Assembly (NCBI GenBank): GCA_036004685.1
Contig: DASYRE010000025.1
Coordinates: forward strand, 1-64,000
Length of the DNA: 64,000 nt
Direction: 5' to 3'
Source of the DNA: Candidatus Polarisedimenticolia bacterium
GTDB taxonomy: Bacteria; Acidobacteriota; Polarisedimenticolia; Gp22-AA2; AA152
The translations under genes and the position numbers were made by a program. Below the pieces are notes generated by a model that was given only the letters and a program-made list of their open reading frames with translations, ran no database searches and was not told the DNA's origin. Numbering within the stretch: position 1 is the first letter of the stretch; every line of letters begins with the position of its first letter. Shown here piece after piece: positions 1 through 18,978 of this stretch.

Positions 1-1172
<1,172 letters not shown>

Positions 1173-1334
1173 AAAACTCTAGACCCGCCGTAGCTCTTCC
1201 CGCATTCGCGCCCAGATTCTCCTCCCGACGCTGTCGTTCTGCAGCAGAGCCCGGCGTTTCCAGGTTGACTGGGAGGAACTCTGTGCGTACGCTTTCAAGG
1301 AAGGTTTCAATTGTCAGGGCGAACCGAGGTGAGC

Positions 1335-2618
1335 ATGCGGTTTCCATCAGCCTTAGTGGCGGGCGGGGTCATCGTGACGGTCCTTTCGGGAACGCCTCTC
1401 AGGGCTGAGGACACGCGCAAGAAGTGGCAGTTCGGAGGCGGCTTCTCCTACTGGTCGACGGATGACAATATCCGCAGCAACGCTACGACGGCGTTCGCTC
1501 CGATCGACGCCAGCCAAGCCCAGAATCTTCCGTCAATCCGTTTCTCGGACCCCAGGCCTGATGCCAACGAGCTCAACGAGCCGACCATTCAAGACAACTT
1601 CAAGCTCGACTTCCAGTCGAGCTTCGGAATAACTCGCTGGGTGGCCCTTCAGCTGGATATGAGCTATTTCAGGGGGGACGTGGGGAACATCGAGTTCTAC
1701 TCGGAGGACACCACGGTTCCGGTAGACCTCTTTGCCCAGGCTCCGGATGATAACCTTCCGCCGAACGAACGCACCCAGCCTCGGAATCCTCTCGATCCGA
1801 CGACATCGATTTGTGCTCCGGTCCAAAGCGGAATCCCCGCGCCCCCCGGAACGAAACGTTGCTACGTGATGAGCCCGCAGGCGTCAAGCACGGTGCGGCG
1901 CAACGGGTTCCTTCCGGTAGGGCAGATCACGGAGATTCCAGTAAGTATCTCCGGGCTGGTCAGGTTCCGGCCCGAGAGTCCCTTCGATCCCTATGTCGGT
2001 GCCGGGGTGGGTTACATCTTTACGAGCCTCGACACGAGCAAGAGCCGGATTGGGACTCCACTCGTACTGACCTCCTCGAACAGCGCCGGCAGCAACAGGA
2101 TTTTTACCATGAACGGATTCGATGATGTCAGCGATTTCACCAACGGCCTGGTGGTCCAGGCGATTCAATCCGGGGCTCGGGGCGTACTGAGCTACCCCTG
2201 TCATCAGACTTTCAATCCGAACGGCTGTATCGCCGATCCGAATCGGCCGGCTGGAGGAACACCGCTCACGGCACTAAGCGCTTCGGTAGATGACGGAATG
2301 GAGTACCATCTGACGGGGGGAGTGGACTATTATTTCTCCGATCGTTGGTCCATCTATATCGATGCCCGGTACGTCTGGGCGCAAAGCAAAGTTAAGGTGC
2401 GAATCAATAATGAAGAGCAGGTGCTCACGAACTACCAGGATTACGGATGTGTGAATGGAGCTCCCACCTGCCGCGCCGTTTCCGGAGTGACGGACATTTC
2501 GAATGCGATCATCCTTAACCCTACGGTCGACGAGGCCAACGATATCATCCTCATTCAGGGAGGCGACATCCGGCTCGGCGGATTCTCCATAGGAGTAGGC
2601 GCAAAAGTCACTTTCTAA
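1335..2618 (+). CDS. Secreted outer-membrane beta-barrel protein located between 23S and 5S rRNA
   Basis: This 427-residue protein starts at ATG 1335, preceded by AGGTGAG; a TTG at 1311 is possible but would spoil the signal peptide. Residues 1-24 form a signal peptide ending ..GTPLRA. The rest shows alternating hydrophobic/polar strands, a VGAGVGYIF glycine-rich strand, and a C-terminal SIGVGAKVTF ending in Phe, the usual outer-membrane barrel signature. The last third resembles OmpW/OmpA-like barrels (a strand such as WSIYIDARYVWAQSK). Four cysteines in the mature part may form disulfides in extracellular loops. Its base composition looks less GC-rich than genes further right. A weak promoter-like pair TTGACT (1265) and TACGCT (1288) lies upstream. 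It sits co-directionally inside the rRNA operon, so read-through from the rRNA promoter is likely. The exact function is unknown. Confidence 0.85.
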   Translation: MRFPSALVAGGVIVTVLSGTPLRAEDTRKKWQFGGGFSYWSTDDNIRSNATTAFAPIDASQAQNLPSIRFSDPRPDANELNEPTIQDNFKLDFQSSFGITRWVALQLDMSYFRGDVGNIEFYSEDTTVPVDLFAQAPDDNLPPNERTQPRNPLDPTTSICAPVQSGIPAPPGTKRCYVMSPQASSTVRRNGFLPVGQITEIPVSISGLVRFRPESPFDPYVGAGVGYIFTSLDTSKSRIGTPLVLTSSNSAGSNRIFTMNGFDDVSDFTNGLVVQAIQSGARGVLSYPCHQTFNPNGCIADPNRPAGGTPLTALSASVDDGMEYHLTGGVDYYFSDRWSIYIDARYVWAQSKVKVRINNEEQVLTNYQDYGCVNGAPTCRAVSGVTDISNAIILNPTVDEANDIILIQGGDIRLGGFSIGVGAKVTF

Positions 2619-2630
2619 AAAATCAGGCTT

Positions 2631-2750
<120 letters not shown>

Positions 2751-2756
2751 TTAATT

Positions 2757-2791
2757 AGGCTCGCATGGTACTCATGCGAGCCTTTTTTTTT
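2757..2791 (+). terminator. Intrinsic terminator of the rRNA operon
   Basis: A perfect 11-bp stem AGGCTCGCATG / CATGCGAGCCT (2757-2767 with 2773-2783) with a 5-base loop is followed by an uninterrupted run of T to 2791. It lies a few bases after 5S rRNA and so closes the 23S-barrel-5S transcription unit. Confidence 0.95.
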
Positions 2792-2833
2792 GACTCCGTC
2801 AAGCCGTGCAATGAAGGTCATTTCGAGCCAGCC

Positions 2834-2861
2834 TTCAAAGGCGGGGATCAACTTCTATGTT
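2834..2861 (+). promoter_or_regulatory. Possible sigma-70 promoter for yebC-ruv
   Basis: TTCAAA (2834-2839) and TATGTT (2856-2861) are separated by 16 bases, about 40 bases upstream of the yebC start and just downstream of the rRNA terminator. The match is moderate; position supports it more than sequence does. Confidence 0.35.
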
Positions 2862-2899
2862 ATCATACGCCCAAGATCGAGGAGCCTGGGGAGGAACTG

Positions 2900-3649
2900 A
2901 TGTCCGGCCATTCCAAGTGGAGCAAGATCAAGCACGTCAAGGGCGCTCAAGACGCGAAACGGGGAAAGATCTTCACGAAGCTGATCAAGGAGATCACCGT
3001 TTCCGCAAGACTTGGAGGGGGAGATCCGGGCGGAAATCCGCGGCTGCGGACCGCGATCGAAGCGGCGCGGGCGGCGAACATGCCCAGCGACAACATCAAG
3101 CGGGCCGTCCAGAAGGGGACCGGCGAACTTCCCGGGCAGCAATACGAGGAGATCGCCTACGAAGGCTACGGTCCGGGGGGCGTGGCCATCTATGTCCAGG
3201 CGATGACCGACAACAGGAACCGCACCCTTCCCGAGATCAGGCACCTGTTCGCGAAATTCGGCGGCAATCTGGGTGAGCAGAATTCGGTGGCCTGGATGTT
3301 CGAAGCGAGGGGATACCTCGTCGTCGACAAGGGTCCCCTGTCGGAAGACGAGCTCATGGAGACGGTGCTCGAGGCGGGAGGGGAGGATCTCCGGGATGAC
3401 GGCGAGAGCTATGAGGTTTTCACCGCGCCGGAATCCTATCAGCGAGTCCGCGAAGCCCTGGAGAAGAAGGGCCTTCCGATTGCCACCGGCGAGGTGGCCA
3501 TGATCCCGAAGAACCGGATACGGGTCGAGGGTAAGAAGGCGCAGAACCTCCTGAACATGATGGAAGCCCTCGAGGATCACGACGACGTCCAGCACGCCTA
3601 TGCCAACTTCGACATTCCGGACGAAGAGCTCGATCGAAGGGCGTCCTGA
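2900..3649 (+). CDS. yebC: YebC/PmpR family DNA-binding regulatory protein
   Basis: This 249-residue protein starts [18 protein letters not shown], the signature N-terminus of the YebC/TACO1 family, and carries the conserved [11 protein letters not shown] and EVAMIPKN segments. Length matches the family (about 240-250). Members have been described as DNA-binding transcriptional regulators and, more recently, as factors that relieve ribosome stalling at proline-rich stretches. Which role applies here cannot be read from sequence. ATG 2900 is preceded by GGGGAGGAA. The gene begins the common yebC-ruvC-ruvA-ruvB neighbourhood, and ruvC overlaps its 3' end. Confidence 0.95.
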
Positions 3650-4160
3650 ACCAAGAGACGTCTTTCGCATCCTGGGAATCGATCCCGGCTCTCATTCCAC
3701 CGGTTATGGCCTGCTCGAGGAGAGCGGGGGACGGCTGCGTGAGATAGAGTCCGGAGCCATCCGCCCGGGCCGGGACAAGCAGTTTCTGCATCGCCTCTCC
3801 GACATTCACGACGCCCTTTCAGAGTTGGTGATACGGTTCAGACCCGACGCCGTTGCGGTCGAGAATCCGTTCCTGGCGCGTAACGTGCGCAGCGCCATGC
3901 AGCTCGGTGAGGCGCGAGCGGCGGCGCTGCTGCCAGCCGTCAGGGCGGGAATTCCGGTCTTCGAGTATGCCCCGCGCCACGTGAAGGCGGCGGTGGTCGG
4001 GCACGGCGGTGCCGAGAAGGCCCAGGTCGCACGCATGGTCGGGCTCTTGCTGGGCCTGTCCGCTTTGCCCATGCCCCTGGATGCCACCGATGCGCTGGCA
4101 GTCGCCATCTGTCATGCCAACCGCTCGTCGGGACTGAGACGTCTGCAAAAACTCACATGA
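3600..4160 (+). CDS. ruvC: Holliday junction resolvase RuvC
   Basis: RuvC is the endonuclease that cuts Holliday junctions symmetrically in complex with RuvAB. The RNase H-fold catalytic acidic residues are all visible: Asp28 in [11 protein letters not shown], Glu88 in AVENPF, and Asp161 and Asp164 in [13 protein letters not shown]. Counting from ATG 3600 the protein has 186 residues, about 20 more at the N-terminus than usual, and overlaps yebC by 50 bases. No ATG, GTG or TTG occurs in frame between 3600 and the GIDPG motif, so either the long start is real or a non-standard start near CGCATCCTG (3666-3674) is used. Its TGA stop overlaps the next start as ATGA. Confidence 0.93.
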
Positions 4161-7045
4161 CCTCTCCGGCCCCGCGGCGGCTCGTCCTGATCGCCCTCCT
4201 TGTCCTCCTCATCGCGGCCGTCTTCGTCAGAATCGTTCCTGCCAAGCGGATCTCCGTGCTGCAGAATCGCGTGGGCCGATCCAACCCTCTCCTCCTTTCC
4301 AAGGGAGTTCACTGGCGAATTCCCGGGTGGGAGGCCATCTACGTCTATTCCGCGGAACCTCTGACCCTACGAGGCGAGATCCCGGCGATCAGCAAGGATC
4401 GAATCAAGGTCGCCGTTCCCTTCGAGTTTCGGGTCCGTCTCGACGACGGCATCGTTCTGAAGGCCCACCGTGAGCGCGCCGCAGGCGAAGATGCTCCCGG
4501 CTGGATTCGCAGGCAGGCGGAGGGCTTCATCGTCCGGATTGCGAAGCGCACTCCGGCCTACCAGCTGTGGAGGGAGAATCTTCCGTCCCAGCAGAGGAGC
4601 ATCCTGAGCGAGGACCTGAAGCCTCTGGGTCTCGTGGAAGACAGTCTTAGAGTGGGTTCCGGCAAGACCGATCCCAAGATCCTGGCCTCCTATGGCACGG
4701 AGAAGCTCGCGGCAATGAGAAGGAACACCGGAGCTAAGATCGCCGTCATCGGTCTGGACGGCGCCGACTGGGATTTCGCCCTCCCCATGATCCGAAAAGG
4801 CGAGCTTCCCAACCTCGCCCGCTTGAGGAAGGAGGGAGCGTACGGAGAGATTCGAACCAACAATCCTCCGCTCTCCCCGCTTCTCTGGACGACGATCGCC
4901 ACCGGGAAATCGCCCGACGTCCATGGAATCAATGACTTCCTGGTGCTCGATGCGAAGACGCGGCGCATGGTCCCGATCTCCAGCGAGTTTCGCAAGGTCA
5001 AGGCGGCCTGGAACATCGCCTCGGACGCCGGACTCACGACGGAGTTCGTCGCTTGGTGGGCTACCTGGCCTGCCGAGCCCGTCCGCGGGATCATGGTCTC
5101 CGATCGCGTCTCCTACTCTCTCTTCAGCTTCGTCTCGGGGATGAGCTTGAGCGGGAAGGAGACCTTTCCGGAAGGCTATTTCAAGGAGATTCAACCCTTC
5201 CTGAAGAGCGAAGCGGCCGTCACGCTGGACGACATCTCGGGCATGGTGCACGTGACGCCGGCGGAACTGGCGGCGGCGCGGACGCCGGAGGCGCGGCGAG
5301 GCGCGAAGGGAGAGGATCTGGAGTCTCTCGCCACGCTGATCCGAGTGGTGGCCAGCACCGAGAACTACTCCCGCATCGCGCAGGATCTCCTGCGCCGCAA
5401 GCAACCCGATCTCTTCGCCGTCTACTTCCAGGGAATCGACGAGGTGAGCCATCGATTCGCCCATCTGGAGCCGCCCCGAATGCCCGGGGTCCCGGCCGAG
5501 CGCTATGCGAAGTACTCCCAGGCGGTCGCCGGCTTTTACCGCTTTCAGGACCGGATTCTGGGAGAGGTGCTCCGCCTGATTTCTAGGGACACGACGCTCA
5601 TCCTGCTCTCGGACCATGGATTCGATTCGGGAGAATCGCGCCCGAAGGATTTTCCTCCGTTCATCGAGGGCCAGCCCGGACTCTGGCATGCTCCTTTCGG
5701 CATGCTCGTTCTACACGGCGCCCACGTGAAGCCAGGCCCGCTTCCGACGTCGAGCCTCTACGACGTGCTGCCCACGATTCTGGATTTGCTGGGCCTTCCA
5801 CCCGCCGAGGACCTTCCCGGCAGGAGCCTGCGCGTTGGCCTTGATCCCGGTTTCGTGGGAGGAGGCGCCCTGCCCAGAATCTCGTCCTATGAAGCCTACG
5901 GGGACCCGCTGCGACCCGCCCGGGAAGGGGAGAGCGAAGCATCCGGCGCCGCCGGAAGCGAGGCGATCGTCGAGACTCTTCGTTCGCTCGGATACGTCGG
6001 AGCGCCGCCGGAGCCCAAAGACTCCGGCAAGCCGGGCGCGTCGGGCGCCGTCAACGCCGCGACCACGGCCCTCTATCACGCCAATCTGGCCTCGATCCTG
6101 GCCGCCAAGGGGGACCTCAAGGGGGCCGAGGCCGAGCACCGCCTGGCGCTGCAGAGCAACCCCGACACCGTCTCGGCGCTCCTGGGACTGGCCCGGATCG
6201 AAGAGATGAAGGGCCATCCCGACCAGGCGCTCGCTCTTCTCCAGCGCATCGTGTCCCGCGGCCTGAAATACGAGCCGCACGTGCTCCTGCGAATCGCCGA
6301 GCTGTTTCACAAGTCAGGACGCGACGAGGACGGTCTCGCCTATTTCGACCGCATAGCCGGCACGGGAAAGAACGAAGCGATGATTTCAACGGCCCGTGGG
6401 GTGTTATACTCGCGCTCGAATCAGCCCCAGAAGGCGGAGGACGCCTTCCGGCGCGCTCTGGCCGAGGAGCCTCTGTCCCTTTCCCCGATGGAAGAGCTCT
6501 TCGTGCTTTACGATCAACAAGGGAGGGTCCCCGAGCTGATTCCCGAGCTCCAGGCGGCCATCCGCCGCGAAGAAGGCTCTTTCATGCACCATAACTGGCT
6601 GGGACTCGCCTACCGGCGGCAGGGCGATCTCGGTCGCGCCGAAGAAGAGCTCCGACGCGCCATCGAGCTGGGGCCGGACCAAGTGGGGCCAGCTGCCAAC
6701 CTCGGAAGCATCTATCTCCAGGACGGCCGGGTAGATGAGGCGGCCAAGCTCCTCGAAAAGGCGCTGGGAAGAGATGCGGCCAGCGCCGAAGTTCGGACCA
6801 ACCTGATCGTCGCCCTCGGCCGGCTCGGACAGGTGGACAAGGCGCGCGATCTCTTCGAGGAGGGGATTCGCATCACCCGGCGCCCTTCCCTCTACAACGC
6901 CATGGCTTTTGCCTATCAGATCAACGGGCGGCCGAAGGACGCGGCCGGCCTTCTCAAGGTCTCTCTCAAGATGGACCCGCACCAGGCCGATGCTCTCCGG
7001 CTTCTCCGGCAGGCGGAACCCGCGGCGCCGGTTCAGCCGCGCTAG
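4157..7045 (+). CDS. Membrane-anchored SPFH-like / type I phosphodiesterase / TPR fusion protein
   Basis: This is a 962-residue, three-part protein. Residues about 7-25 form one membrane segment. Residues 28-170 resemble an SPFH/prohibitin-type domain (KRISVLQNRVGRSNP, then VAVPFEFRVRLDDGIV). Residues about 190-580 form an alkaline-phosphatase-superfamily domain of the type I phosphodiesterase kind: VIGLDGADWDFALPM (metal Asp), a probable Thr nucleophile in PLLWTTIATGKSPDVHG, FQGIDEVSHRF, LLSDHGFDSG and a later GLWHAPFG His. Residues about 620-955 are tandem TPRs. Related phosphatase-TPR proteins are common in Acidobacteriota-like genomes but substrates are unknown. It overlaps ruvC by 4 bases and ends 10 bases before ruvA, so it is translated within the ruv operon although nothing in it suggests recombination. 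Confidence 0.85.
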   Translation: MTSPAPRRLVLIALLVLLIAAVFVRIVPAKRISVLQNRVGRSNPLLLSKGVHWRIPGWEAIYVYSAEPLTLRGEIPAISKDRIKVAVPFEFRVRLDDGIVLKAHRERAAGEDAPGWIRRQAEGFIVRIAKRTPAYQLWRENLPSQQRSILSEDLKPLGLVEDSLRVGSGKTDPKILASYGTEKLAAMRRNTGAKIAVIGLDGADWDFALPMIRKGELPNLARLRKEGAYGEIRTNNPPLSPLLWTTIATGKSPDVHGINDFLVLDAKTRRMVPISSEFRKVKAAWNIASDAGLTTEFVAWWATWPAEPVRGIMVSDRVSYSLFSFVSGMSLSGKETFPEGYFKEIQPFLKSEAAVTLDDISGMVHVTPAELAAARTPEARRGAKGEDLESLATLIRVVASTENYSRIAQDLLRRKQPDLFAVYFQGIDEVSHRFAHLEPPRMPGVPAERYAKYSQAVAGFYRFQDRILGEVLRLISRDTTLILLSDHGFDSGESRPKDFPPFIEGQPGLWHAPFGMLVLHGAHVKPGPLPTSSLYDVLPTILDLLGLPPAEDLPGRSLRVGLDPGFVGGGALPRISSYEAYGDPLRPAREGESEASGAAGSEAIVETLRSLGYVGAPPEPKDSGKPGASGAVNAATTALYHANLASILAAKGDLKGAEAEHRLALQSNPDTVSALLGLARIEEMKGHPDQALALLQRIVSRGLKYEPHVLLRIAELFHKSGRDEDGLAYFDRIAGTGKNEAMISTARGVLYSRSNQPQKAEDAFRRALAEEPLSLSPMEELFVLYDQQGRVPELIPELQAAIRREEGSFMHHNWLGLAYRRQGDLGRAEEELRRAIELGPDQVGPAANLGSIYLQDGRVDEAAKLLEKALGRDAASAEVRTNLIVALGRLGQVDKARDLFEEGIRITRRPSLYNAMAFAYQINGRPKDAAGLLKVSLKMDPHQADALRLLRQAEPAAPVQPR

Positions 7046-9300: not shown

Positions 9301-12300
9301 TTACGGGCAGCTAGGTGTGGTGGAACGCGTCCCGTTGGCACTGCTGCAAACGCCCCTTGACGTGTTGTTGCAGGTCTCGCCTCCGGGGCAGTCGGCAGTA
9401 ACGTCGCAGCGGGTGGCCGTGGTAATCGAGCAACTCAGGCAGCTGCTCTTCACACCGGCCCCTCCTGATCCACCGCAATGGTCGGTCGGACTCAAGCTGC
9501 AGGATTCGGTCCTGGCTTGACCGTAGGTGGCGAATACCTTCGTCACTCCCGCGGGAGTCGTGAAGATGTTCCCCAGGTAGTAGTACAAGTTGGCCGACAG
9601 CGGGTTGCTGGCGCTGTCGTCCAGACTGATCTGGCTGGGCGTCGGCGGGTTGCAAGCGTGCTGCACCGCGTCGATGTCGCAGGAGCTGACCCCGGCCAGT
9701 CCGTTCGTCGTGAACGACGCGACGTTGCTGAACCCGGCCGCGGGAGTGCAACCGGAGACGGTGCAGGTTCCGGTGAGGCCACCATCGGTGCCGCCGGCCA
9801 CCAGCCCGTTGCCGACGCCAAGAGCCGCGGTCCTGACGAAGGCATGACCGTACACCGGGCGCGGCATCGAAAGGTGCGGAGGCGTGCCCGGTCCGTTGAG
9901 CAGGTAGTTGGAGATGGTGACTGCCGCTGGCGCAGGCACCGAGCACGTGCCGCCGCCGAGGCACTGGGCGGCCGCGGTGCAAGCCGTACCCGGATTGGTG
10001 CCACCGGCGCAGGTGACCGCGCCGAAGAGCCCACCCGAGAGACTCGGCTCGGTGGCGGCCGGAGGCGGTCCGGCGTAGACGTTGCACCCACCTGCGACCG
10101 CACCGACCGGCGGACCGACCGGAGCGGTTGTGCAGGAGAAGTCGGAGCTGCAGCGGACCTCGACCTGATAGAGGTCGCCAGCGTTGTTCGTACTGGTAGA
10201 GGTGGTGGCCGTGTTTCCGAGCTTCAGGTTGCCGGAGGTGGACCAGTCTTGGAGAACGGTCGTTCCTCCCCCGTCGACCTTGGAGAAGCGGAACTGCGCC
10301 ACGCCGTCGGCGCACCCTCCGGGGTTCGCCGTCTGCGAAGCGTCGAGGAGGAGAGACTCGCCGACCACGATGACGCCGTCCCCGTCCGCGTCATTGATGC
10401 GGAAGTCGACGGTGAAGCCGTTCGTGCCGAGGGCCTCGTTGCACTTGGCAGCCGCGGTCGCCGGACACTGGCTGGTGAGCGGGATCGAGGTAGTTTCGAC
10501 CGCCGGAGCGATCGGCGTGGTGACGGCGCCGGTAATCTGGATCGAGTCGATCCACCAGCCGTCGTCGCGCGTCCCGATGTCGAACGGATTAGCGGCTCCG
10601 GGCGGCTCGAGATAGGAATCCCAGCCGTTGCCGAAGTCCCAGCCCTGGCCGACCCAGCGGAACTTGACGCGCTGTCCGAGGAACAAGCCGAGGTTGAACT
10701 TGCTCTGGACCCAGATACCCTCACCGATGCTGCCGAGAGATCCCGGACCCTGGGCATTGAAGAACGAGAAGACGTTCGTCCCCAGGACGTTTCCGGAGTG
10801 CGACCAGACGCCGTCGGGGAAGCACATCGTCTCCCCGAAGGAGCCGGGGACGTTCGCGTTGGCCGCGTCGGTCGGGGTGAATTCGCAGTAACCGAACCAG
10901 GACCAGACCTGGGTCGTGTGGTCGTAGACGTTCTGGAACGGAATCAACTTCTGCCAGCGGCCGAAGTTGTCTCCCGCACCCGGATCCTGATCCACCGAGA
11001 TTTGAACGTCCGCGTGGTCTCCCGACTGGTCGACCTGGAAGTTGATCGCGTTGTCGTCCGCGAAGTCGGCGATGTGCCAGAAGGACATGAACAGGTCGCC
11101 GATGGTCGCGTTCGGCAGGATCGTCAGGTTGATCGGGTTCGTGTCGAAAGCCTCGATTTCGCGAAGAGGCGTGGTGTCGAATTTCCTCTCCGCGGCATCG
11201 GTGTGACGGCCCCAGTGCGCCGACTTGGTGCCGTGGAACGCCTTCTCCGCCGGAATCGGCCCGGTGGTGCTGTCGAAGTGCCAGTCGGTGTCGAAGTCAG
11301 GGTCGATCTGACAGCCCTGAGGACCGGTGCGGCCGCCGATCTCCATGAACCCGAAGCAGGCCTGACCCACCATCGAGGTGTTGGAGTCCGCGGCGGCATT
11401 CCTCTCGATGAACCCGAAGGTGGAGCTGAAATCGTTGTTCTGGCTGATTCCGCCCGTACCGGTCGGGCTCGGCCCCTGGATCTCGAAGTCCTCGTAGATC
11501 AGGCCGGGCTTGCAGGAGGTTGGGACGTTGCCGCAGTTCGCGTCGGAGGCGCAGGCGGCGCCCGCGAAGCTCGGAGCGAGATCAGCGTCGCAGCGGGAGG
11601 CCGTCGGTGTGACCGTGGCTCCCGTCGGAACGTCGATGTCCTCCAGGAAGGCGACGGGGATCGGCACGGTCGTGCCGCCCACCTCGTTGGAGTTCATCGT
11701 CAGGGTCAGGTTGCCGCGGGCGGGAAGCGTCCCGGTGTTGGTGGTCGTGGTCGAGGCGATGACCACCTCGAAGAACTTTCCGTCGGTCGGCTGGGCGGCA
11801 TCGTCGACCGGGGTCAACGTGCGCGTATCCAGCGTCGTGCCGTTCGGGAAGCTCGCGATGGTGATCGCGGCATCGAGGATGCACGCGATGTCGGGATCGC
11901 CCGTGGAGAGCGAGAGGTTGATGCCGGTCAGGTTGATCCCGGTGATGTTCTGGAGCACCAGGCCCAGCCGGACCCTCTCACCCGGGTCGCCGAACGCATC
12001 GCCGTCACCGCAGGCATTGGCCACGTCGGCGCAGGTGGCGCCGCCGGCGCACGTCGCTCCAAGCGTGGTGCACGCCTTGCCGACGTTGGGCCCGGACAGG
12101 CAAGCGCGAACCGCCGGATTGGCGCTGGGGCAGGCCCCGAGCTCGGCCCGGTCGCGGACGAGCGGCGAGAGAACGACGAGCTCCGCCAGAGGAACGTTCT
12201 TGCAGGTCGCGGCCATCGCGAAGAACGGACCGTTGGCCACGTCGTCGGGAATGCCGTCGCGGTTCTCGTCGAAGTGCCCGACGGGGTCGCAGGCGTTGCC

Positions 12301-15300
12301 GATGAGGTTGAAGTTGTCATCGGACTGCACCGGCGGGTCGGAGCCGGGCAGGATCGTCTGGTTGTAGGTGACGGCGCAGTTGTCCTGGTTGTCCTGGACG
12401 AGGTCGCCGTCGGCGTCGTCGTTGGTCCCCGAGCAGACCCGGCTGACGGTGCAGGTGCCCGGAGAGACGCAGTTCGAGTTGACGAAGCACCGCTTGGTGG
12501 CATCGTTGGAACAGGTGCCCAGGCAGTCGCCGTCGCAGGCATCGCCCAGACCGTCGCCGTCGGCGTCGGCCTGGCCGCTGTTCGGCGTCAAGTCGCAGTT
12601 GTCGGTCTCGTCGCACACCGCGTCGCCGTCATAGTTGTCGGGACCGACGACATTCGGAGTGCAGCCGCTCGGCGGATCGTCGTCGCAGGCCTCTCCGTGT
12701 CCGCCGCCGCCCAGGACTTGTCCGGCCACGCAGGTTCCTCCGACGCACGCCGCCAGAGGACCACCGTGGGTGCTACAGGGAATCGTGGCGTCGTTGGTGC
12801 AGTGCCCCTCATCCGGAACATCCGGACAGAGGTCGGTGGCGTTGATCAGGCCGTCGTTGTCGACGTCGTCGTTGTCGCAGACATCCCCGACGCCGTCCAG
12901 ATCGCCGTCGGCCTGGCTCGGGTTGTAGATGAAGGGGCAGTTGTCGCAGCCGAAGTAGGTGCCCCCCACCACGGTGCCGCCGACTTTGTCCCCGTCGTCA
13001 TCAACCTGAAGGGGGTTGTAGACGGTGGGGCAGTTGTCGGAGGGGCCGGCGGGCGCGGTGCAGACGTCGTCGATGGACCCGGTGGCGGGGTTGAAGCCGC
13101 AAATGCCATCCAGTCCGTTGCAGGTGGTGATGTCATCCGAGCTTCCGGGGATGCCGTCGCGACCGGCGCAGGACGGCACGCCGTCACCGTCCAGGTTCGC
13201 AAAGCTCGACTGGCCGGCGATGTGGTTCTGGTTGGAGTCGCACTGGCTGTCCTCGTAGGCGACGAAGACGTTGGTCTCGGTTCCGGGAACCGTGAAGACG
13301 ACGCCCGGGGAGTTGAACACCCCGGACACCTGGATCTGGCCGGTAAAGACACCCGCGGTCGCCGATTCGGCGAGGCTGATGGTTTCACCAGGGAAGGGAT
13401 CGGAGTTCGACCAGACCTTGACCTGGATGGTGTCGTTGCTTCCACCCGCGGTCCCCGCGATGCAGGGAGAAGCGGCGCCCGCGCCGTAGCGGGAGTCGTT
13501 CACCGTGACCCTGAGGGTCTCGTTGCAGTCGTACAGGTTGGTCCTGTCCACCGAAAGGGTGGCGCACTTGCAACCGGCGGCGATTTCGCCGGCACCGATG
13601 CCGATGCGGCTGCAGGAGGGGGTCGCCTCGGCAGCCGGATGGACCTCGTCCCACTCGAAGACGACGTCGTCGACCGACACGCCGAAGTCGCCGTCCGACG
13701 CGCTGGGGATGATCGGATTCTGCTCCACGTACAGGAACGCGAGGCCGATCTGGAACCGGTTGCCCGCGTCGCCGGGCGTGAAGAACTGCAGGCCGTTGTC
13801 CTCGTAGTCCACCGAATCGAACTCCAGCCCTCGGCTGGGGCCGGCCACGGTGTCCTCACCCACGTGCGGCTCGGCGGCACCGGCCGGACAGCTGCCGGCA
13901 CCTCCCTGGCAGGGGCCGGGGAAAGGCCGCAGGTTCGTGGGGGCGGTGGGGATGATCGGCTTGATGGCGTAGTAGTCGTTGCCGCTGGCGTTGTCGAAGC
14001 CGGTGAAGCCGGTCTCGTCGCCCGTCAGGGTGGGGGTCCCGGCGGAAAGCGATCCGTCGGGGTCGGTCCGGGGACCGAACGTCACCTGGTTGTAGTAGAA
14101 CACGGTGTAGTGGGGATCGATCGGTCCGGTTTGGGTCGCGATGTAGTACTGCGTTCCGTCACCGCGAGGGCCGTTGCCAGGCCGGACGATCGCCTTCGGC
14201 ACGTCGTGATCGATGTCGTTGTCGACGTCGATGTACAGCGTCGGCTCGTTGTAGTAGAACTGGATCGACTCGTTGAAGCCGAGGCGCTGGAACTCGACGG
14301 TGAACGGGTTGCCGTTCGCGTCGGTCCCCTGGTTGACCTTCTCGATCACGGGACTGATGAAGTAGTCGAGGAGGAATTCGGCGCGCCGGCCCGTCAAGTC
14401 GTTGAACGCCAGGCCGTAGTTGCCGCACTCCGGGTTGTCCGCGCCGCCGTTGCAGGGACCGTTGGCGCCGCAGTCGCTATTCAGGTAGCAGGCCGCGCCG
14501 CCGACGGCACAGGTACCCGTCACGCCGCTTCCAGTGTGCCACACGCCGCCCACGAAGGCGCCGGCGGGAATCGCCACGCAGCCGCCGCCGAGACCGTTGT
14601 CGAAGCCCGGCGTGCCGTTGGCCTGGACGCAGTTCGACTTGGACTGGGTCTGGAACCCGCAAGTGCCGTTCTGCACGTAGTGCCAGACCGGCAGAGTCGC
14701 CGCCGAGGCGCCGATGTTGCTGGCGGCGTCGCGCTGCGTGTACCAGCCGCCGTTGTTGGCATCGAAGTTCCACGGAATCAGGTCGGTGCCGGCGGGGTTC
14801 GTGTCGGTCAGGACATGCCGGTCGACGATGCCGTTGCTGTCGCCGGTGCTGTTGAAGATCCCGAGCGCCGGATACGCCTCGTCGGCCGCCACGCAGCCCG
14901 AGGGGTTCCCGGCGCCGATGCAGATCACGTTGGTGATGGCGCCGTTGTTCCCGGGCTTGCCGGCCAGCGGGGTGAACATGCTGGAGAACGTGACCGTCTC
15001 ATCCAGCAGCCCGAGCGTCAGGCCGGGGCGGTCGTTCGGCTCGATGACCAGCGAGCGGTTGATGTCGCGCTGGATCGAGCCGCTGCCGTTCGGGAAGTCG
15101 GTCGAGTAGTGCAGGCTCGCCCGGTCCGAACCCAGCGCATGCTGGAAGTTGAAGACCTGGCGGCCCAGGACCGTGCCGTTGCTCGTATTGGCCAGGGTCA
15201 GACGCAGGAAGAGCTGACCCGACACCGCCACGTCGTTGACTTTGATCGAGAAGGTGACCGCCTCCGGCTGTCCTTGAGGCAGACGCCCGATGTTCTTGGG

Positions 15301-18300
15301 CGAATCGAGGATCGACAGCGGCGCCGGGGTGCCGCAGCTGTTGTTCGCTCCGAAAGGCACCGCGCAAGCCAACAGCGTGGCGGTGACGTCGGTGTACTCG
15401 TCGAGCCGCGAGTTGTTGACCACGGCCACCGAATAGGTCACCAGCTCGTTGCGGTCGAAGAACTGGTCGGTGTCGCAGCCGCCGAACAGCAGGTCGGTCT
15501 TGTTGCGCTGTCCCGGGATCACGAAGATGCCGCCCAGGAAGTTGGGCTCGCAATCCATCGGGGCCCGTCCGAACGCGGTCCGCGAGCCGCCGGTCGCGTC
15601 GACGTAGGTCACCTCGACAGTGTAGCCGGTGTCGCCCTCGATGACGCCGTTGCCGGGGGTCCCGACCGCGGGGGAGCCGCTGCCGAGCCGCACGGCCACG
15701 GGAATCGAGGAGAAGACGTGGCTGGCGCCGTTGAACTTGAGGTTCGCCTCGGTGTCGACGAGGGCGCCGGAGGTGTTGTAGACCCGGACGGTCGTCGCCC
15801 CGCTGATCTGGAGGGCTGAGGCGTCGGACTCCCAAACGTTCACGGCCGCGTCGTCGGAGCAGCCGTAGCGGATCTTGTCCAGCCGCGCCATCGACTGCGG
15901 GAAGCTGGCGAACTGGGGCGCGGTGTTGGTGCCGTCCTTCTCGACGACCAGCGGACCGGCCACGGCCAGCCCGTAGACCTGGCCTCCCTTGTCCAGGAAG
16001 GTGTCGCCGTCGGTGTCCTCGCCGGCGTCCAGACGGTTGTTGTTGTTGGCGTCCTCGTTGGCTCCGGTGATCTGGCTGATTTGGCCGGCCACGGCGCCTC
16101 CGGCGCCGCGCTTCACCCGCACCGTCCAAACTCCGTCGACGATCTGGTTGTCGGCGGTCCCGGGGTTGGCATCCGGGTTGTCGTGCAGGTGAACGCACTC
16201 AATCGCGTTGAAGTGATCGGCCTGATCCGGATCCCCGCCGGCCCGGCCGAGACCCCACTGGCCCACCACCTGGTTGAAGGCGTTGTAGACGTTTCCGTCG
16301 TAGACCTTGCCGGTCGGATCGATCAGCTCCAGGTCGAGATCGTTGACCAGCAGATCGCCCGGCGGATCGGGCCACGCGACGCAGGCCCGGATCTGGCCCG
16401 CGTTCCCGAGAACCCGGAAGTGATGATCGTGCTGGGTGCTGGCATTGCTGATCGCCGGCTCGGCCGTGGCGGCTCCCCCTCCGTCGGGATCCACGCCGTC
16501 CCAGACCACCAGTCCGAGGGCCGGCTTCTCAGGCGTCCCGGCGCTGATGACTGCGAAGTCCTCCGGCACCGTCTCGTTCGGCCAGTTGACGATCGGCAGG
16601 ACGTGCGACGCCACCGAGCGTCCATACCCTTGCTGATTGTTCCCCAGCACCTGGGGCGAGCCGCTCACCGTCACGAGCGAGGCGCGCGACCGGGCCACCT
16701 GGTCGTCGTTAGGATCCAACCCGGCGGTGTTCCCGGCGTTGCCGAGCTGCTCTTCGGAGAAGTCGGCGGAGGCAGCGAGCATGGCCTTGACCGCGGCGCC
16801 CGAAACCGCCGAGACCCGGTCCCCCTGGACCCGGTCGCCGGTGGGGTAGAAGCCCTGATGGAAGTAGTCCTCCAGGATGGTGGCGATGCTGGCGATCGAC
16901 GCGGCGCCGAAGGAGGTGCCGCGGGCCTGCTGGTCGATTTCCGTCTCCACCGGCCCGCCCTGGTTGTTGTCACGGCTGCGGACAGTGTACATGCCCATCG
17001 GCACCGGGCCGCCGCCCGTCGGGGCGCGGTCGTTGCCGACGCCCGTGACGATCGGAACGGCGCGCAGGGAGGCCGCGCTGGCGGGACCCTTCGCCGTGAA
17101 GTTCTGGGGGTTCTCCTCCTCGTTGAACGGTCCGAACATCGTTCCGGTGTCCTCGCAGGTCGCCCCGGCCGCCACGACGTTCTTGGCGGTGGAAGGCGGC
17201 GACGCTTGCAAGGGGCGGAAGATGGGACCCAAGGGGGGGGTAAGGAGCTGTTGCGCGTCGCTCCCCCCGCTCGACTCGCCGTCGAAGAAGTCGCAGATCA
17301 GGTCGCGGCCGTTGGTGAGCGAGAAGCCGCGGTTGCCGACCGGGACGAAGACCTGGTACTCGAGGTTGTTGACCAGGTACTTGTCGAGCTCGCTGGATTC
17401 GGCCGTGTAGGTTCCGGCCCCGGTGGCCTGTCCGTTGGCGACCCAGTTCGGGATGCCGAAGGCCATGACGTGCAGCCGGGCGCCGGCGGTGTAGGCGGCG
17501 TCCATCCGGGCGGTCAGCGAGCCGGGGCTCACGTTGGCGCCCCGCTCGACGATCTCGGCCGCGGTGCACTGCGACGTCAGGGCCGCATCCTGGATCGCCA
17601 GGCGCGCGCCGCGGGCCGCGCCGTCGAGGTTCAAAGCGCGCGGCACCGAGGTCTGGGAGACCAGGTGGCTCATCGAGAACTGGAAGCCCAAGGCGCTGGC
17701 GTTGCCGGCGATCATCCCGGCGATCACGTTGCCGTGGGTCTGCGCGCCGGAGAGCACGCTGTCGCAGGTCGAGCCGATGGGCACCGTGTCGGCGACCACC
17801 AGCTGGTAGGCCGCGATCTTGCGGTGCGTCCCCCCCCCGATCAGGGCGCTGATCTGCGCCTCGGTCAGGGTCGCGGTGCTGTGCGCCAGGGTCGCCGCGT
17901 CGGTCGACGCGCCGTTGTCCAGGACCGCCACGATGGTCGCCGGGACCGGCGTGGAGCAGTTCCGCGGATCGGTGTTGCCGACGGCGCCGTTGCCACAGCC
18001 GCCACCGTCCACGTTGGCGTCCCAGTAGGGCGTCGCCGAGCCGGTGTTCTCGTTCTCACCGACCTGCACGGTCGGCGGATGCTCCTTGAACACGAACGCC
18101 GAGAGCTGGTACTCCGGAACCTCGCTGATGTTCCGCACCCGCTCGTCCCGCGCCAGCTTGCGCAGATCGGCGACCGACAGGGTCGCCAGGATCGTCGCCC
18201 CGTCCTCCACCATCGACACGTTGTCGTGGTGGCCGTTCTTCATGTCCTTGAGCAGGCCTTCCACCTCCGCCGGGTCCCAGGCGGTGACGTGGACGTCCAG

Positions 18301-18978
18301 CTCCTTCTTGTTGGCCCGCACCTTGTCGAGCAGCATCTGCCGGCCGGCGTTCACGTCGATCTTGAACGCTCCCGCGTACGGCAGTGACGCCTCGACGAAG
18401 GAGGCCTTGACGAGCTCGGCCATCGCCTTGTCGCTGCCCTTCACCACCAGCGCCCGGTCGGCGCGGGTGTCGAGGATGCGCACGCCCATCCCCTTCAACT
18501 CGGCCTCGATCGCGTCGTAACCCTTCACCTTCAGCGCGTCGGCCGAAATCTGGATGATCCCGACGCCGCTGCCCAGACCCAGACCCTTGCCCGCCGGCGC
18601 TGCGTGGGCGGCCGCGGGGCGCAAATCCGCAGGAATCGCGTCAAACGCGTGCGGATTCTTCGGGTTGAAGAAGCCCTGCTGCGTGAAAATCAGCCCCTTC
18701 CGCTGCTGACCCGGTGGCGGAATGTTGGGGTTGAAATTGCCGAGAGGGGCCACGTCCAGCGGCCGCTCATTGACGGCATCAATGGAAGTGCGCTGGAAAT
18801 AAGCCAGCGCATCCGGATCGATATCCCGCTTGTCGAGCTGACTATTGGGATCGATGCCGGGTTTTGCGCCTCCTTTAACCGCCCAGGTATAGACGGACGG
18901 CACCAGGAGGGTCGCCACCAGAGCAAGGGCCACGAGGAGCACCCCTTTCCCGCTCTGCGCAGAGAACCTACTAGGCAT
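9301..18978 (-). CDS. Giant secreted S8 subtilase with thrombospondin type 3 and cysteine-rich repeats
   Basis: This 3225-residue exported protein starts at ATG 18978 behind TAGGAGGAAG. Residues 1-33 look like a signal peptide. A subtilisin-type catalytic domain follows: Asp354 in TIVAVLDNGAS, His415 in THGNVIAGMIAG and Ser689 in RGTSFGAAS. The His-Ser spacing is long. A P-domain-like region follows (CVAWPDPPGD, NDLDLELIDPTG). Residues about 1950-2215 contain Asp-rich thrombospondin type 3 calcium-binding repeats (DNCPFIYNPSQADGDLDG and relatives). Around 2490-2815 is a jelly-roll/MAM-like region. A dispersed four-cysteine motif occurs at least seven times. It likely acts outside the cell or on its surface, probably calcium-stabilised. 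No sortase or PorSS-type tail was recognised. Substrate is unknown. Confidence 0.88.
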   Translation of the reverse strand: MPSRFSAQSGKGVLLVALALVATLLVPSVYTWAVKGGAKPGIDPNSQLDKRDIDPDALAYFQRTSIDAVNERPLDVAPLGNFNPNIPPPGQQRKGLIFTQQGFFNPKNPHAFDAIPADLRPAAAHAAPAGKGLGLGSGVGIIQISADALKVKGYDAIEAELKGMGVRILDTRADRALVVKGSDKAMAELVKASFVEASLPYAGAFKIDVNAGRQMLLDKVRANKKELDVHVTAWDPAEVEGLLKDMKNGHHDNVSMVEDGATILATLSVADLRKLARDERVRNISEVPEYQLSAFVFKEHPPTVQVGENENTGSATPYWDANVDGGGCGNGAVGNTDPRNCSTPVPATIVAVLDNGASTDAATLAHSTATLTEAQISALIGGGTHRKIAAYQLVVADTVPIGSTCDSVLSGAQTHGNVIAGMIAGNASALGFQFSMSHLVSQTSVPRALNLDGAARGARLAIQDAALTSQCTAAEIVERGANVSPGSLTARMDAAYTAGARLHVMAFGIPNWVANGQATGAGTYTAESSELDKYLVNNLEYQVFVPVGNRGFSLTNGRDLICDFFDGESSGGSDAQQLLTPPLGPIFRPLQASPPSTAKNVVAAGATCEDTGTMFGPFNEEENPQNFTAKGPASAASLRAVPIVTGVGNDRAPTGGGPVPMGMYTVRSRDNNQGGPVETEIDQQARGTSFGAASIASIATILEDYFHQGFYPTGDRVQGDRVSAVSGAAVKAMLAASADFSEEQLGNAGNTAGLDPNDDQVARSRASLVTVSGSPQVLGNNQQGYGRSVASHVLPIVNWPNETVPEDFAVISAGTPEKPALGLVVWDGVDPDGGGAATAEPAISNASTQHDHHFRVLGNAGQIRACVAWPDPPGDLLVNDLDLELIDPTGKVYDGNVYNAFNQVVGQWGLGRAGGDPDQADHFNAIECVHLHDNPDANPGTADNQIVDGVWTVRVKRGAGGAVAGQISQITGANEDANNNNRLDAGEDTDGDTFLDKGGQVYGLAVAGPLVVEKDGTNTAPQFASFPQSMARLDKIRYGCSDDAAVNVWESDASALQISGATTVRVYNTSGALVDTEANLKFNGASHVFSSIPVAVRLGSGSPAVGTPGNGVIEGDTGYTVEVTYVDATGGSRTAFGRAPMDCEPNFLGGIFVIPGQRNKTDLLFGGCDTDQFFDRNELVTYSVAVVNNSRLDEYTDVTATLLACAVPFGANNSCGTPAPLSILDSPKNIGRLPQGQPEAVTFSIKVNDVAVSGQLFLRLTLANTSNGTVLGRQVFNFQHALGSDRASLHYSTDFPNGSGSIQRDINRSLVIEPNDRPGLTLGLLDETVTFSSMFTPLAGKPGNNGAITNVICIGAGNPSGCVAADEAYPALGIFNSTGDSNGIVDRHVLTDTNPAGTDLIPWNFDANNGGWYTQRDAASNIGASAATLPVWHYVQNGTCGFQTQSKSNCVQANGTPGFDNGLGGGCVAIPAGAFVGGVWHTGSGVTGTCAVGGAACYLNSDCGANGPCNGGADNPECGNYGLAFNDLTGRRAEFLLDYFISPVIEKVNQGTDANGNPFTVEFQRLGFNESIQFYYNEPTLYIDVDNDIDHDVPKAIVRPGNGPRGDGTQYYIATQTGPIDPHYTVFYYNQVTFGPRTDPDGSLSAGTPTLTGDETGFTGFDNASGNDYYAIKPIIPTAPTNLRPFPGPCQGGAGSCPAGAAEPHVGEDTVAGPSRGLEFDSVDYEDNGLQFFTPGDAGNRFQIGLAFLYVEQNPIIPSASDGDFGVSVDDVVFEWDEVHPAAEATPSCSRIGIGAGEIAAGCKCATLSVDRTNLYDCNETLRVTVNDSRYGAGAASPCIAGTAGGSNDTIQVKVWSNSDPFPGETISLAESATAGVFTGQIQVSGVFNSPGVVFTVPGTETNVFVAYEDSQCDSNQNHIAGQSSFANLDGDGVPSCAGRDGIPGSSDDITTCNGLDGICGFNPATGSIDDVCTAPAGPSDNCPTVYNPLQVDDDGDKVGGTVVGGTYFGCDNCPFIYNPSQADGDLDGVGDVCDNDDVDNDGLINATDLCPDVPDEGHCTNDATIPCSTHGGPLAACVGGTCVAGQVLGGGGHGEACDDDPPSGCTPNVVGPDNYDGDAVCDETDNCDLTPNSGQADADGDGLGDACDGDCLGTCSNDATKRCFVNSNCVSPGTCTVSRVCSGTNDDADGDLVQDNQDNCAVTYNQTILPGSDPPVQSDDNFNLIGNACDPVGHFDENRDGIPDDVANGPFFAMAATCKNVPLAELVVLSPLVRDRAELGACPSANPAVRACLSGPNVGKACTTLGATCAGGATCADVANACGDGDAFGDPGERVRLGLVLQNITGINLTGINLSLSTGDPDIACILDAAITIASFPNGTTLDTRTLTPVDDAAQPTDGKFFEVVIASTTTTNTGTLPARGNLTLTMNSNEVGGTTVPIPVAFLEDIDVPTGATVTPTASRCDADLAPSFAGAACASDANCGNVPTSCKPGLIYEDFEIQGPSPTGTGGISQNNDFSSTFGFIERNAAADSNTSMVGQACFGFMEIGGRTGPQGCQIDPDFDTDWHFDSTTGPIPAEKAFHGTKSAHWGRHTDAAERKFDTTPLREIEAFDTNPINLTILPNATIGDLFMSFWHIADFADDNAINFQVDQSGDHADVQISVDQDPGAGDNFGRWQKLIPFQNVYDHTTQVWSWFGYCEFTPTDAANANVPGSFGETMCFPDGVWSHSGNVLGTNVFSFFNAQGPGSLGSIGEGIWVQSKFNLGLFLGQRVKFRWVGQGWDFGNGWDSYLEPPGAANPFDIGTRDDGWWIDSIQITGAVTTPIAPAVETTSIPLTSQCPATAAAKCNEALGTNGFTVDFRINDADGDGVIVVGESLLLDASQTANPGGCADGVAQFRFSKVDGGGTTVLQDWSTSGNLKLGNTATTSTSTNNAGDLYQVEVRCSSDFSCTTAPVGPPVGAVAGGCNVYAGPPPAATEPSLSGGLFGAVTCAGGTNPGTACTAAAQCLGGGTCSVPAPAAVTISNYLLNGPGTPPHLSMPRPVYGHAFVRTAALGVGNGLVAGGTDGGLTGTCTVSGCTPAAGFSNVASFTTNGLAGVSSCDIDAVQHACNPPTPSQISLDDSASNPLSANLYYYLGNIFTTPAGVTKVFATYGQARTESCSLSPTDHCGGSGGAGVKSSCLSCSITTATRCDVTADCPGGETCNNTSRGVCSSANGTRSTTPSCP

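Follow-up and report, generated by a model that had tools for sequence, protein, structure and literature searches.

An outer-membrane protein gene between the 23S and 5S rRNA genes of Candidatus Polarisedimenticolia

We propose, with moderate confidence, that the single rRNA operon detected in genomes of the class Candidatus Polarisedimenticolia is split by a gene for an outer-membrane protein (OMP), and that this gene and 5S rRNA form a unit separable from 16S-23S. The 16S, 23S, and 5S rRNAs are needed in equal numbers, and they are usually made as one transcript. The bacteria with this arrangement are an uncultured class from soils and sediments, the same as Acidobacteriota subdivision 22 (PMC8528874). 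We refer to the whole stretch of 64,000 nucleotides that was analyzed as the window. It begins at base 1 of contig C25, in a genome of 62 contigs.

The 23S gene is cut at its 5′ side by the contig start, and its 3′ part occupies positions 1–1172 of the forward strand (Rfam RF02541, 1287 bits, model positions 1767–2925). The sole open reading frame between 23S and 5S lies on the same strand, with a Shine-Dalgarno sequence GAGGTGA at 1326–1332, an ATG at 1335, and a stop at 2616–2618, so that the gene (1335–2618) encodes 427 amino acids. The 5S gene at 2632–2748 (Rfam, full length, 97 bits) is the single one detected in this genome, and the gap between 23S and 5S is 1459 nt. The junction from the OMP stop to 5S (2619–2631, forward strand) has 13 bases, not the 12 originally given, and neither a promoter nor a terminator of its own was detected within it. 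A terminator scan of positions 1000–3000 finds one terminator-like site, at 2757–2783 behind 5S; as an intrinsic terminator with a 12-pair stem and a T run, it is annotated at 2757–2791 on the forward strand. The original prediction of a complete barrel gene with a signal peptide, co-directional between 23S and 5S and with a terminator 3′ of 5S, thus holds (Rfam, Pfam, AlphaFold). An rRNA intron or a homing endonuclease insertion was ruled out, as the 23S end is intact at 1172, Rfam reports no intron in the window, and the protein is a barrel.

Downstream on the same strand are yebC (2900–3649, Pfam), adjacent in most relatives, and a ruvC open reading frame (3600–4160, Pfam) whose true start is probably later. 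Two other genes of this neighborhood can be described here. The gene at 4157–7045, for a phosphodiesterase/TPR protein of 962 aa that matches Band 7, separates ruvC from ruvA in families f1 and f2; several other families have the two ruv genes directly adjacent. Downstream of ruvB, the reverse strand at 9301–18978 encodes a giant protein of 3225 aa with thrombospondin type 3 repeats, and comparable long open reading frames occupy the same place in several relatives.

By sequence score and predicted fold, the protein is a small outer-membrane beta-barrel of the OmpW/OprG type. Proteins of the OmpW family form channels for small hydrophobic compounds. The N-terminus carries a signal peptide (...LSGTPLRA|ED) and the C-terminus an aromatic residue (KVTF). 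The window protein scores 30.4 bits against the Pfam OmpW family (PF03922, cut-off 24) and a member from family f2 (L026) scores 25.1 bits; several other members fall under the PF03922 cut-off and match PF13505 instead. The AlphaFold model (mean pLDDT 64) has a core with pLDDT >90 and low-confidence loops, and its best PDB matches by Foldseek are OprG (E-value 7e-10) and OmpW (TM-score 0.80 on target length). The likeness to OmpW/OprG (PF03922; PDB 2f1t, 2x27) thus lies in the small barrel core, whereas the window-type OMP is about twice as long and has long variable loops. The f2 loops contain acidic, Asp/Asn-rich and Cys-rich inserts. In the f2 proteins (L023, L024, L025, L026, L028), which are 537–622 aa where complete, the loops are rich in cysteines and DxNxNGxLD-like motifs, which suggests extracellular calcium binding.

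Besides the Pfam and AlphaFold results, the gene is supported by its conservation in the class and by selection against amino-acid change in relatives. A dN/dS of ~0.32 (G005-G007), compared with ~0.05 for YebC, puts the OMP under moderate constraint and indicates that it is kept by selection. Its GC3 is below that of yebC in 13 of 17 genomes, yet it follows each genome's own GC3, which argues for a native gene.

In order to see how far the arrangement extends, all 41 class genomes were surveyed using a profile of 19 OMP members together with a 5S search. A 5S gene is assembled in 25 of them, one copy each, and in 22 of these 25 a member of the OMP family adjoins it. Two gene orders are observed. 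The order 23S-OMP-5S is found in 14 genomes (G000, G002, G004-G008, G013, G014, G016, G020, G022, G027, G033), of which G008, G013, G014, G016, and G020 have the 23S side cut off or masked, so that the visible part is OMP-5S. The order 23S-5S-OMP is found in eight (G015, G021, G026, G028, G030, G032, G034, G037). As for the remaining three, G025 has 23S-5S-yebC and no OMP of this family, so the gene is dispensable there, and the locus is cut by contig ends in G003 and G035. In 14 class genomes OMP and 5S are jointly absent, as expected for linked genes where assembly is poor. Downstream, yebC and then ruvC follow in most members, and in f1 the 5S starts 6–13 nt past the OMP stop. The association of OMP and rRNA occurs in most families of the class. 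Comparing the rrn operons of relatives therefore bears out the arrangement, 23S-OMP-5S being conserved in independent class genomes, and this gene order and its conservation are solid.

A single-protein search of public contig records for relatives of the OMP found none; a search using a six-sequence alignment found four public records, named Acidobacteria, two of them gp22. Two loci of the class have peculiarities of their own. In G009 (L028, 5249–5442), a 5S remnant with ~60 internal bases missing lies between OMP and yebC, and it is either an assembly error or a broken 5S. In G012 (L111), a group I intron lies within 23S (3211–3490), and neither 5S nor OMP is found within 4.5 kb after that 23S.

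Outside the class, the gap between 23S and 5S, obtained by combining 5S positions with 23S 3′ ends by hand, is 34–359 nt in nearly all of ~100 Acidobacteriota genomes and never exceeds 1 kb, compared with the 1459 nt that make the rRNA genes of the window non-contiguous. The sole genome with a gap of 724 nt is G388, from another family of the phylum (L109, 439–1159), and this gap holds a 107-aa open reading frame. One genome of another class, G049, has an OMP of the same family (profile E-value ~1e-21) ~35 nt upstream of 5S. It is the only genome outside the class found to hold the OMP beside 5S, and it was recognized by reading the locus; the phylum survey, which scored four candidates per genome, missed it, so absence elsewhere is not strict. 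In G049 the 23S begins ~500 nt from OMP-5S and on the opposite strand, such that the two are divergent and 5S cannot be made together with 23S there. A placement of the G049 23S 360 kb from 5S was rejected, because the 23S contains 100-N gaps and its 5′ part is beside OMP-5S. One of these scaffold gaps, at L113 8080–8179, lies inside the 23S of this nominally single-contig genome, and the 23S 3′ end is placed ~360 kb off.

How old is the split? On a YebC tree the two gene orders need at least two changes. Since 23S-OMP-5S occurs to either side of the midpoint root, and G049 too has OMP-5S, the split order is probably the older one. The tree thus suggests that the split probably predates the main lineages of the class, although the root is not firmly known.

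The signals around the gene indicate how such an operon might work. In G002, where 23S is complete, the sequences on either side of it pair into a long stem (−91 kcal/mol), the 3′ arm of which is the first 40–50 nt of the 23S-OMP spacer. A homologous stretch, aligned across six genomes, is present in the window at 1173–1215 (forward strand) and is presumably the 3′ arm of the 23S processing stem, with the 5′ arm off the contig. The stretch GTAGCTCTT behind 23S resembles a boxA, but that interpretation was discarded, since its G002 counterpart pairs with the 5′ flank of 23S.

A predicted sigma-70-like promoter stands between rRNA and OMP in 15 of 17 genomes. In the window it is TTGACT-N17-TACGCT at 1265–1293 on the forward strand (shuffle p 0.006), with a weak −10 (TACGCT) that a stricter scan missed, and its place is conserved in G002 and G004-G007. 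The corresponding sites are TTGATC-N17-TATTCT in f2 and TTGACC-N18-TATAAA in the genomes with 23S-5S-OMP. Single-genome p values for these promoters are often weak and the support comes from the conserved place, the distance to the start codon being similar across genomes. Strong promoter-like sites before 5S are confined to split genomes, in f2 (extended −10), G014, G033, and G049 (TTGACA-N17-TATACT), and none is found in the 23S-5S-OMP genomes. None is recognizable before 5S in the window and G002 (scores 3.5 and 6.3).

A terminator follows 5S in 21 of 25 genomes (shuffle expectation 0.1), and there is none between OMP and 5S in any of the 14 split genomes. Between 23S and OMP, a terminator is found in two (G022 and G033) of the nine split genomes with sequence there and is absent in the other seven, where transcription from the rRNA side could continue as far as 5S and produce it as usual. 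In the 23S-5S-OMP genomes the OMP gene sits past the 5S terminator.

From these signals we infer the promoters and a production of 5S from the OMP unit. An OmpW-type gene with its own sigma-70-like promoter would split the single detected rRNA operon; 23S would be excised via its own flanking stem, the 3′ arm of which lies just ahead of the OMP promoter; and OMP and 5S would form one downstream unit that ends at the old operon terminator. For the window, G002, and the window's family, the simplest account has 5S transcribed as the tail of the OMP message, with readthrough from rRNA possible. In f2, G014, G033, and G049, 5S would have a promoter that overlaps the OMP gene end. In both cases it would then be trimmed by ordinary 5S processing. 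The 5S of the class probably depends on the transcription of the OMP gene or on a promoter of its own, judging from the sequence signals. A stronger version, which we hold as tentative and give somewhat less than an even chance, is that the only detected 5S is routinely the 3′ end of an OMP mRNA or the product of a promoter in the gene end, in which case its supply would be tied to an envelope gene and not to 16S/23S.

The persistence of the gene order could also be neutral: an insertion tolerated in a single-copy operon, in slow growers without need for a tight 23S-5S linkage, the position having no regulatory meaning. This addresses why the order persists and is compatible with our explanation, and we regard it as a serious possibility that falls a little short of probable. 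It would fit with the class having only a single 5S in each genome, with both orders and one loss being observed, with the normal 23S-5S arrangement without the gene outside the class, and with split rRNA operons being widespread (PMC7761764). On the other hand, the OMP gene itself is under selection, and it stays beside rRNA through both orders and across families, something that the conserved rRNA-yebC-ruvC neighborhood could do passively.

The original prediction raised the idea that the gene is a true rRNA-operon cistron, so that the rRNA promoter would drive a single 16S-23S-OMP-5S transcript and the protein would track growth rate, and this we consider unlikely. Co-transcription retains some support: the genes are on the same strand, no terminator parts OMP from 23S or from 5S in the window, none precedes 5S in the f1 and f2 relatives, and the f1 junction is very short. 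But the promoter-like site between 23S and OMP and the terminators after 23S in G022 and G033 speak against it. The tracking of growth rate is weakened further: the OMP has the lowest codon adaptation among the genes compared (0.46, versus 0.67–0.87 for ribosomal proteins), so codon usage gives no sign of high expression, OMP-5S is divergent from 23S in G049, and OMP lies past the 5S terminator in the 23S-5S-OMP genomes. Finally, an assembly misjoin or a recent mobile insertion, although the contig starts within 23S, a usual break point, and these metagenome genomes are fragmented, has a negligible chance and is refuted by the same arrangement, in most families and in both gene orders, across many independently assembled genomes in which the protein family aligns.

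Returning to the split operon with a separable OMP-5S unit, it would provide natural tests of three questions: how cells keep their rRNAs in equal supply once 5S is decoupled, whether an mRNA can end in a ribosomal RNA, and whether gene position can tie envelope growth to ribosome production. On the practical side, a 23S-5S spacer that exceeds 1 kb and contains a gene violates rules commonly used to annotate rRNA operons. In the mostly non-subscription literature we found no precedent for a conserved protein gene lying between 23S and 5S, and a conserved rRNA-operon split by an OMP gene appears not to have been described previously.

Several known systems come close. Among the unlinked operons cited in PMC7761764, Wolbachia has 16S apart from 23S-5S, and Thermoplasma has all three apart. 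Those cases resemble ours in that the usual operon partners are separated, possibly with separate promoters; here, however, it is 23S and 5S that are parted, by a specific conserved protein gene to which 5S remains joined. In Enterococcus faecium, vanHAX inserted behind an rRNA operon and was shown to be co-transcribed with it (PMC11702846). There too an rRNA operon has protein-coding sequence at its 3′ side, but the event is fresh and drug-selected, behind 5S and through a broken terminator, whereas the OMP gene of the class is old, is usually before 5S, and has the terminator intact and a promoter-like site of its own. Desulfallas gibsoniae has a stand-alone 5S, an oversized and possibly non-functional copy (PMC7812874). 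That 5S also lies apart from 23S and has different promoters and terminators, but the 5S of Candidatus Polarisedimenticolia is the only one detected in the genome.
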